A DNA stretch of 64,000 nucleotides, taken from NCBI RefSeq assembly GCF_900176005.1, contig NZ_LT838272.1, positions 949,587 through 1,013,586 of the forward strand, read 5' to 3'. Numbering within the stretch: position 1 is the stretch's first letter; each line of letters opens with the position of its first letter. The translations under genes and the position numbers were made by a program. The stretch comes from Thermanaeromonas toyohensis ToBE. Its GTDB lineage: Bacteria > Bacillota > DSM-521 > Neomoorellales > Neomoorellaceae. The notes beneath the pieces are model-generated. The model had not been told where the DNA came from, made no database searches, and saw only the letters and a program-made list of their open reading frames with translations. Shown one piece after another: positions 13,803 to 62,558 of the stretch.

Positions 13803-13931
13803 GCCCCGACAAGGGCAAACCCATCGAAAGGTGGGGGCGCAAAGCTATAGGGTCTAAGGCCAGATGTTTCTGGCTATGACAGCCAGCTGCCGTGGGTGGA
13901 ACGGGGCTACCCATTAAAATAGGAGTAGCCC
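13803..13931 (+). promoter_or_regulatory. c-di-GMP-I (GEMM) riboswitch upstream of a chemoreceptor
   Basis: All class-I landmarks are present: GGGCAAAC followed by a GAAA-tetraloop hairpin, then GGCGCAAAGC, the tetraloop-receptor GGTCTAAGG, and a second arm ending CAGCTGCCG. The closing helix P1 is GCCCCG (13803-13808) with CGGGGC (13902-13907). The 3' strand of P1 shares four bases with the 5' arm of a following terminator hairpin, so ligand-stabilised P1 and terminator exclude each other. Identity is by conserved bases; the ON polarity is inference. Confidence 0.92.
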
Positions 13932-42962: not shown

Positions 42963-43010
42963 AAATTTTAACCAAAACTTTAGCTAAATTTTGGAGAACC
43001 CTGCAGGATT

Positions 43011-43038
43011 TTGGCATTTTGTGTTGAATAAGTATTAA
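43011..43038 (+). promoter_or_regulatory. Weak promoter candidate for the flgB operon
   Basis: TTGGCA (5 of 6), 16-base spacer, TATTAA (4 of 6). It lies about 25 bases before the riboswitch. No sigma-28 element is seen, as expected for an early flagellar operon that encodes fliA. Confidence 0.35.
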
Positions 43039-43064: not shown

Positions 43065-43225
43065 GCGCTCCGTTAAGGGCAAGCTCTCCGAAAGGGGATG
43101 CGCGCAAAGCCATGGGTCTAAGGCTCCGGTGGCCCGAGTAGCTTCCCTGGGCTTACCGGGGCTAAGATCGCCAGGCTGCCGGGGCTGGAAAGCTTGTAGT
43201 TTGCCCGCCCTTGTTCGGAGCGGGC
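43065..43225 (+). promoter_or_regulatory. c-di-GMP-I (GEMM) riboswitch before the flgB-fliA operon
   Basis: GGGCAAGC, a hairpin with a GAAA tetraloop, GCGCGCAAAGCC, the receptor GGTCTAAGG and a second arm ending CCAGGCTGCCGG match the class-I aptamer and align with the copy before the chemoreceptor gene. P1 is CGCTCCG (43066-43072) with CGGAGCG (43216-43222), a perfect 7-bp pairing, followed on the 5' side by the same 4-base junction as in the other copy. The 3' P1 strand overlaps the 3' arm of the terminator. The aptamer's second arm is unusually long and GC-rich. Confidence 0.88.
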
Positions 43226-43231
43226 TTTTTT
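43203..43231 (+). terminator. Riboswitch-controlled terminator before flgB
   Basis: GCCCGC (43203-43208) pairs with GCGGGC (43220-43225), extended by CC/GG, followed by six T. Formation requires bases also used by P1 of the c-di-GMP aptamer. Confidence 0.8.
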
Positions 43232-43351
43232 GGTCGTTTTAGGACTATGGTCCCATAGAAAAATAGGGACTTTAGCCTCCTACACTTTTTACCAATTTCT
43301 TATTACACTGTTGGATAAAGGTGAAAAACAGGAGAAAGAAGGGAAAGAAGG

Positions 43352-43750
43352 GTGTTTTTGTCGGCGGTAGGGGAGGCCTTACGAAAAGTCCTCGAAGCTG
43401 CTGCTCTACGGCAGCGGGTTATCGCCCATAACTTAGCCAACGCCAATACACCAGGCTTCAAGCGCTATTACGTCACTTTTGAAGAAAGCTTAAGGCGCGC
43501 CTTGCGCGGGGAACAGGGATTGACGTTGTACCGGACGCATCCCAGGCACCTACCGGGCTCTGGTCCTGAAGTAGAACCGAGGGTAGAGCAGGATCGCTTC
43601 ACTGCTATGCGCCGGGACGGTAATAATGTAGACATCGAGCGGGAAATGGTGGAGCTGGTTATGAATTCCTTGAATTATAACCTCGCTGTACAACAGTTAA
43701 ACGGGCGTTTAGGGATGTGGCGCTATGTTATCAATGAAGGGAGGCGGTAA
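43352..43750 (+). CDS. flgB: Flagellar basal-body rod protein FlgB
   Basis: 132 residues with the rod motif RQRVIAHNLANANTPGFKRYYVTFEESL and a C-terminal helix MVELVMNSLNYNLAVQQL. A proximal rod subunit in the cell envelope. The start is a GTG; a TTG 6 bases later, better spaced from GAAGGG, is an alternative. First gene of the long flagellar operon. Confidence 0.93.
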   Translation: MFLSAVGEALRKVLEAAALRQRVIAHNLANANTPGFKRYYVTFEESLRRALRGEQGLTLYRTHPRHLPGSGPEVEPRVEQDRFTAMRRDGNNVDIEREMVELVMNSLNYNLAVQQLNGRLGMWRYVINEGRR

Positions 43751-61136: not shown

Positions 61137-61793
61137 ATGCCTGAACACTATTTTTTGCAGGTCAACAGAAGTGTAACTATAAAGCCACTCTGGGGCGGGC
61201 AACCTTTCCGGTCGGTTATCCAGGAGCTTACCCAGGACACCTTTGCTGTCTTGGCACCTCAGGAGGGAAGCGCGGCTTTAAGGTTGGGAGAAAAAGTGAA
61301 GGTGGAAGTCCTAGCCCCTGATGCCCGGTATGAGTTTCAGAGCACCTTAGAACGTATAGTAACTGAACCCCTCCATCTTTATTACTTTAGTCTACCGAAA
61401 GAAGTAAAACGGGTACAGGAACGGAGGTTTGTCAGGGCTAAAGTTACCTTAGAGGTGTGCTATGCTTTGGGTACTGAAGAAAGCGATCCGGCTATTCCCC
61501 CCCATCTTTTTAAGAAAGCTTATACTGTAGATTTAAGTGGTGGGGGCGCCCAGCTCATTTTAAAAGAGAAACCGGAAGTAAATAGCTTTTTATGGTTAAG
61601 CCTTCCTCTTCCGGACGGGAGAGAACCCCTAGTGGTGAAGGGCCGCGTAAAACGGGTAGGTATAAGGGTTGTAGATGGCCTAGAGCGGTATGAAGTCGGC
61701 TTGGCCTTTGAAGGGTTGACCGAAAGGGATGTAGACCGGATCATGCGGTTTGTTTTCCAGCGCCTTTTGAAAGAAAGGTGGCAAGAGGGGTAG
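61137..61793 (+). CDS. PilZ-domain c-di-GMP-binding protein (YcgR/YpfA-like)
   Basis: 218 residues: an N-terminal YcgR-like beta domain (1-90) and a C-terminal PilZ domain with both ligand motifs, RxxxR at Arg96-Arg100 (ERRFVRAKV) and DxSxxG at 132-137 (VDLSGGGAQLIL). Such proteins bind c-di-GMP and brake the motor. The ATG follows AGGGAGAGAAG. Its place between flhG and fliA is a common Firmicute arrangement. The same second messenger is read by the two riboswitches in this window. Confidence 0.9.
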   Translation: MPEHYFLQVNRSVTIKPLWGGQPFRSVIQELTQDTFAVLAPQEGSAALRLGEKVKVEVLAPDARYEFQSTLERIVTEPLHLYYFSLPKEVKRVQERRFVRAKVTLEVCYALGTEESDPAIPPHLFKKAYTVDLSGGGAQLILKEKPEVNSFLWLSLPLPDGREPLVVKGRVKRVGIRVVDGLERYEVGLAFEGLTERDVDRIMRFVFQRLLKERWQEG

Positions 61794-61799
61794 AGGGAC

Positions 61800-62558
61800 A
61801 TGGCGGTCAATAACTTGGATCTCTGGCAATCCTTTGCCAGCGAGAGAGATGAAAAGGTGCGACAAGAGCTAGCCCTCAAGTATTTGCCCCTGGTCAAATA
61901 CATTGTGGGGCGGCTGGCTGTAAAACCACCTCCCTCCCTGGATCAAGAAGATCTCCTAGGTTACGGGATAATAGGCCTGCTTGAAGCCATTGATCGTTAT
62001 GATCCTTCCCGGGGGGTAAGTTTTGAAGCCTTTGCCGCCCGCAGGATCCGCGGCGCAGTTTTAGATGCGTTAAGACGAGCCCACTGGGCACCGCGAACAT
62101 TAATAGAGAAGCTTAAGCAAGTTAGCGCTGTGTACCGGCGACTGGAACAAGAACAGGGGGTAGAACCTCGAGACGAAGAGGTGGCGGCAGCAGCTGGGTT
62201 AGAGGTTAGTGAATTGCAGGGGCTTCTGGAGAGGGGGGCCCAGATGGCCATTATTTCCTTAGAGGAATTTCTTTTAAACGAAGAAAGGGAGGAAACGGTA
62301 CGTAGGGGAGAACTGTTAGCCGATACCCAGAGCCCGGCGCCGGACCAACGCTTGGAACAAGAGGAACTACGTAGAGCTCTTAAGGAAGCCCTACGAACTT
62401 TGAATGAGCGGGACCGGTTGATCCTGACCCTTTATTATCACGAAGGATTAACCTTAAAAGAGATAGGCGAGGTACTGCAGATCTCCGAATCCAGGGTTTG
62501 CCAACTCCATGGCCGCGCTTTGCTTAACCTTCGTAATAAGCTTGCCGATTATCTGTAG
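61800..62558 (+). CDS. fliA: Flagellar sigma-28 factor FliA/SigD
   Basis: 252 residues. Region 2 (LVKYIVGRLAVKPPPSLDQEDLLGYGIIGLLEAIDRYDPSRGVSFEAFAARRIRGAVLDALR), region 3 and the region 4 helix-turn-helix (LNERDRLILTLYYHEGLTLKEIGEVLQISESRVCQLHGRAL) are complete. It should recognise the TAAA/TTAA-N15-NCCGATAA elements found before flgM, flgN, flagellin and flaG. Confidence 0.97.
   Translation: MAVNNLDLWQSFASERDEKVRQELALKYLPLVKYIVGRLAVKPPPSLDQEDLLGYGIIGLLEAIDRYDPSRGVSFEAFAARRIRGAVLDALRRAHWAPRTLIEKLKQVSAVYRRLEQEQGVEPRDEEVAAAAGLEVSELQGLLERGAQMAIISLEEFLLNEEREETVRRGELLADTQSPAPDQRLEQEELRRALKEALRTLNERDRLILTLYYHEGLTLKEIGEVLQISESRVCQLHGRALLNLRNKLADYL

Follow-up and report, generated by a model that had tools for sequence, protein, structure and literature searches.

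Introduction

In Clostridioides difficile, the c-di-GMP-I riboswitch Cd1 (Cdi1_3), which lies before flgB, is an OFF switch by experiment (PMC6366702; PMC3649979). The antiterminator of this OFF switch draws on the aptamer's 3′ side, with G86 and C87 pairing with nucleotides 147-148, and there is no stable P1 (PMC9262584). In the pilM GEMM-I riboswitch of Geobacter metallireducens, which senses c-GAMP, the terminator sequesters the 3′ strand of the aptamer, such that ligand prevents termination and turns the gene ON (PMC9262584). Ligand also results in read-through in Bc1, a c-di-GMP-I riboswitch associated with the cap gene of Bacillus thuringiensis (PMC6366702). The windows reported for ligand binding are 25 nt for pilM and 61 nt for Cd1.

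Here, we describe the flgB leader of Thermanaeromonas toyohensis ToBE. The genome is a single contig of 3.33 Mb, of which we analyzed a 64-kb piece (the window). A first-pass annotation of the window had proposed that a c-di-GMP riboswitch turns the flagellar operon ON. In a non-exhaustive literature search, we found no description of a c-di-GMP riboswitch from Moorella, whose FliF proteins are ~56% identical to that of T. toyohensis; identity to the FliF of a Thermanaeromonas MAG is 85%.

Results

Since the genome contains eight RF01051 aptamers, 17 GGDEF matches above the family cut-off and one PilZ protein, c-di-GMP signaling is present. The PilZ protein, the only one found in a genome search, is encoded in the flagellar operon. 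This operon lies downstream of the riboswitch, as had been annotated: flgB is followed on the same strand by flgC, fliE, fliF and other genes, onward to the PilZ protein, a flagellar-type sigma factor and beyond, over ~20 kb (Table 1). Elsewhere in the window, a second RF01051 aptamer (13804-13894; 81 bits) precedes a methyl-accepting chemotaxis gene (13971) and cheW/cheA-like genes.

The probable start region of the leader contains a sigma-H-like promoter, and transcription is expected to start near 43037. The promoter is found at a near-fixed distance in 12 of 14 family leaders, and suggests that a stationary-phase/sporulation sigma factor may be needed for expression of the flagellar operon.

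Table 1. Features of the flgB leader and the downstream operon, in window coordinates
Feature	Position	Strand	Basis
Sigma-H-like promoter, GC-AGGATTT-N11-GTTGAATA; probable leader start region	43003-43030	+	Sole window match; chance mean 0.21
Predicted antiterminator, 5′ strand, CGCUCCG-U-UAAGGGC	43066-43080	+	MFE fold; P 0.99 in full-length ligand-free ensemble
Local (canonical) P1, 5′ strand, GCUCCG; also outer 5′ strand of predicted antiterminator	43067-43072	+	Pairs with 43180-43185
c-di-GMP-I aptamer; P2 with GAAA loop (43090-43093), P3 with 32-nt extension	43068-43183	+	RF01051
G20, contacts G-alpha of ligand; lost in antiterminator helix	43078	+	Rfam alignment column 11
Local (canonical) P1, 3′ strand, CGGGGC	43180-43185	+	Starts at C93, directly after C92 (43179)
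Intrinsic terminator hairpin, GCCCGC-CC-loop-GG-A-GCGGGC	43203-43225	+	-14.6 kcal/mol
Predicted antiterminator, 3′ strand, GCCCUUG-UU-CGGAGCG, within terminator	43207-43222	+	MFE fold, ensemble, shuffle test
Terminator U-tract (T6)	43226-43231	+	Sequence
flgB, first flagellar operon gene	43352-43750	+	ORF, GTG start at 43352; Pfam Flg_bb_rod
PilZ/YcgR-like c-di-GMP effector, same operon	61137-61793	+	PF07238 3e-14; PF12945 2e-6
Flagellar-type sigma factor (sigma-70 regions 2, 3 and 4), same operon	61800-62558	+	Pfam

Using cmscan, we detected RF01051 with 57.6 bits (gathering score 35; E = 1.2e-8), which confirms that the RNA upstream of flgB is a class-I aptamer, as annotated, and predicts that it binds c-di-GMP. 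All of the class hallmarks are present: the conserved G20 and C92, the GAAA tetraloop, P2 and P3, and a local P1. The nucleotide at 43078 is G20 in the numbering of the Vc2 structure. The annotated strong terminator is also present between the aptamer and flgB, and consists of GCCCGCCCTTGTTCGGAGCGGGC followed by TTTTTT. Since this terminator lies entirely outside the aptamer and P1, which together span 43067-43185, a closed P1 cannot by itself block it. A hairpin followed by a T-tract recurs between aptamer and flgB in relatives, although the sequences differ. Between the terminator and flgB, an imperfect inverted motif at 43236-43275 (AGGACYAWRGTCC ... GGRCTTWAGTCC) is kept in family leaders.

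The first-pass annotation had identified P1 as a 7-bp helix between CGCTCCG (43066-43072) and CGGAGCG (43216-43222). This complementarity is present, and the 3′ half of the CGGAGCG segment overlaps the 3′ arm of the terminator (43220-43225), as described. In the MFE fold of the leader, the 7 bp are the outer half of a longer helix, which continues inward with UAAGGGC (43074-43080) paired with GCCCUUG (43207-43213) to give 14 bp with a 1x2 internal loop. Because this helix consumes the core segment AAGGGC, including G20, it and the ligand-binding fold are mutually exclusive. We conclude that the 14-bp helix is a predicted antiterminator, formed at the expense of the aptamer. Compared with 500 dinucleotide shuffles, the P1/core strand forms a stronger duplex with the terminator region (p = 0.004). 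A second possible core pairing with the same OFF logic joins GGGCAAGC (43077-43084) to GUUUGCCC, slightly upstream in the terminator 5′ arm.

We compared flgB leaders from 15 family genomes and from relatives across the phylum, using 42 nonredundant leaders in the tests and excluding one (G001) that was without an aptamer core. Class-I P1 lies directly after C92, and we therefore paired the strand preceding the core with the strand directly after C92. Local P1 had a mean energy of -7.8 kcal/mol, compared to -4.6 kcal/mol for permuted partners (z = -8.9; 0 of 20,000 permutations). The paired sequences vary widely, as in CUUGAACG/CGUUUAAG, CCAGGAA/UUCCUGG and GCUCCG/CGGGGC. Since pairing beats permuted partners across leaders that differ so widely in sequence, the local P1 is the conserved one. 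In the sister species, a Thermanaeromonas sp., the equivalent P1 3′ strand is used with a probability of 0.96. The annotation had specified beforehand that a P1 that did not use the equivalent of 43216-43222 in homologues would refute its reading, and the P1 of homologues does not use it. As the local P1 is conserved and the long helix runs into the core, we rejected CGCUCCG/CGGAGCG as the closing helix of the aptamer.

Complements of the core were enriched in the expression platforms of the 42 leaders relative to dinucleotide shuffles (Fisher p = 1.3e-4), with p = 1 for a control aptamer segment and p = 0.036 for the 3′ aptamer strand; for many Moorella leaders, the significance of the individual duplex is modest. 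Clear anti-core cases include UAAGGGC/GCCCUUA in the sister species (G016), GGGCAAGC/GCUUGCCC in G003, CAAGGGCA/UGCCCUUG in G017 and L078, CAGGGGC/GCCCCUG in L120 and AGAAAGGGC/GCCCUUUUU in L053. In L052, a core A to U change is matched by a change in the platform (AGGGCUA/UAGCCCU). The anti-core stretch often lies in the 5′ arm or loop of the terminator.

Moorellaceae have conserved the aptamer-terminator-flgB arrangement, and it is also common in the phylum as a whole. Outside the family, 30 of the 64 flgB upstream regions that we sampled (L064-L127) contain a c-di-GMP-I type aptamer, some of them RF03167. The flgB leader of G002, a Clostridia MAG (L029 / L049), has the core AAUAGCAAG, with an A at the G20 position; an A at position 20 goes with c-GAMP recognition in other GEMM-I RNAs. 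Near 1500-1600 of L007 (genome 15014), the core GGGUAAA and its partner GCAC replace GGGCAAA and GCGC, an apparent compensated change at C22, and the ORF downstream resembles an HD-domain protein. In L001, a leader from the T. toyohensis genome itself, the terminator arm contains CTCCCCACC, a match to the P1 3′ strand GGTGGGGAG that may form a Cd1-like 3′-side antiterminator. From L001, the genome may use both aptamer strand choices for its antiterminators.

We computed the probability of the terminator hairpin in three ensembles. For the T. toyohensis leader, the free ensemble gave 0.01, enforcing P2 and P3 raised this to 0.30, and adding the local P1 to the constraints brought it to 0.999. 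The corresponding values for the sister species were 0.20, 0.99 and 0.99, and the direction was unchanged for both leaders when folding was performed at 60°C. Thus, the annotated ON polarity was not supported, as the 14-bp antiterminator unfolds the core, the local P1 is conserved and the sister species computes OFF. Across the phylum, protecting the aptamer shifted 14 leaders toward termination (OFF) and one weakly toward ON, with 21 flat, a survey that is biased toward OFF by design because it counted only terminators clear of the aptamer 3′ end, making it supportive only. Folding discrimination was absent in the relatives G002, G010, G013/G014, L052, L053 and G017.

A scan of transcript lengths revealed that the antiterminator is dominant only at 43219-43222, and that the terminator 3′ arm is completed later, at 43225. 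Synthesis of the antiterminator strand ends only at 43222, about 37-43 nt beyond the aptamer. Possibly, the ligand would bind in this window, before the antiterminator is completed. In the scan, the free aptamer core was only partly formed, with probabilities for the P2 core pairs mostly between 0 and 0.6.

Discussion

The leader contains the aptamer, two alternative helices and a terminator, and all of these are conserved. From these parts we infer ligand binding, the co-transcriptional order and the polarity, and we consider it highly probable that the flgB leader is a transcriptional OFF riboswitch by which high c-di-GMP shuts off the operon. In the ligand-free RNA, the P1 5′ strand and core would capture 43207-43222 as this segment emerges, and the resulting 14-bp antiterminator would block the terminator, allowing transcription of flgB and the operon genes behind it. 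Binding of c-di-GMP would lock the three-way junction and local P1 before the antiterminator strand is synthesized, the terminator would fold and the operon would be off. The folds that are compatible with ligand tie, at -75.6 kcal/mol for P1 plus terminator and -75.8 kcal/mol for the long-range P1. Since the energies do not separate them, our choice of OFF relies on the co-transcriptional order, the relatives and the finding that ligand stabilizes the contiguous P1 in class-I aptamers, such as Vc2 and pilM (PMC9262584).

In an ON switch, the bound aptamer would hold CGCUCCG/CGGAGCG as a long-range P1 that disrupts the terminator. The leader would then respond in the opposite way to that of C. 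difficile flgB, for which the response has been tested, and the PilZ protein would be an opposing brake. The 7-bp complementarity is real, and when P2 and P3 are enforced but the local P1 is not, the terminator is still open ~70% of the time. However, the same strand pairs better in the ligand-free RNA, via the core, such that termination would already be off without ligand (terminator probability 0.01). Moreover, relatives conserve the local P1, and the terminator does not overlap the aptamer 3′ strand as that of pilM does (PMC9262584). We regard ON control through the long-range P1 as unlikely.

The strength of the antiterminator raises another explanation, that the switch is weak or degenerate and the polymerase reads through whatever the c-di-GMP level. 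At full length, the antiterminator fold is favored over the aptamer folds by 4.5-4.7 kcal/mol. Nevertheless, the sister species and family have kept the aptamer, P1 and terminator, and a binding window of 37-43 nt falls between those of pilM and Cd1, making a degenerate switch very unlikely. Although the leader has ~120 nt between terminator and flgB, where translation or RNA stability could be the main point of control with the terminator incidental, recurrence of the hairpin and T-tract in relatives with differing sequences argues against this explanation, to which we give almost no weight.

Given an OFF switch, c-di-GMP is predicted to shut down flagellar synthesis in Thermanaeromonas and Moorella rather than promote it, which fits both the general rule and the brake that the operon's own PilZ protein would supply. 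Flagella that are already built would be slowed by this PilZ/YcgR protein, and both receptors would act in the same way. Because the predicted switch and the PilZ/YcgR-like protein would act in one direction, there is no paradox, and the pairing is not the unusual one that the annotation described. Switches of the c-di-GMP-I class are widespread in flgB leaders of the phylum, and many have an anti-core sequence inside the terminator, which constitutes a simple, testable OFF design. On the best evidence, the T. toyohensis leader would be an otherwise ordinary c-di-GMP-I OFF switch in which the 5′-strand antiterminator is the new part.

How does this leader compare with the described riboswitches? 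It shares a related aptamer and transcriptional control with pilM. Unlike the terminator of pilM, which ties up the aptamer 3′ strand, its terminator (43203-43225) lies outside the aptamer and P1, and position 20 is a G, as in c-di-GMP sensors. With Bc1 it shares the class-I aptamer and a transcriptional platform, whereas Bc1 gives read-through on ligand and precedes a different gene (PMC6366702). Most is shared with Cd1: the aptamer class, the site before a flgB operon that carries a flagellar sigma factor, the intrinsic terminator that separates aptamer from flgB, an antiterminator incompatible with the aptamer fold and an OFF polarity, here predicted. The contrast with C. difficile that had been annotated therefore disappears. 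The two leaders differ in the strand that is used, as the Cd1 antiterminator uses the aptamer's 3′ side, while that of T. toyohensis would take the P1 5′ strand and the core with G20, and a GC-rich P1 is present.
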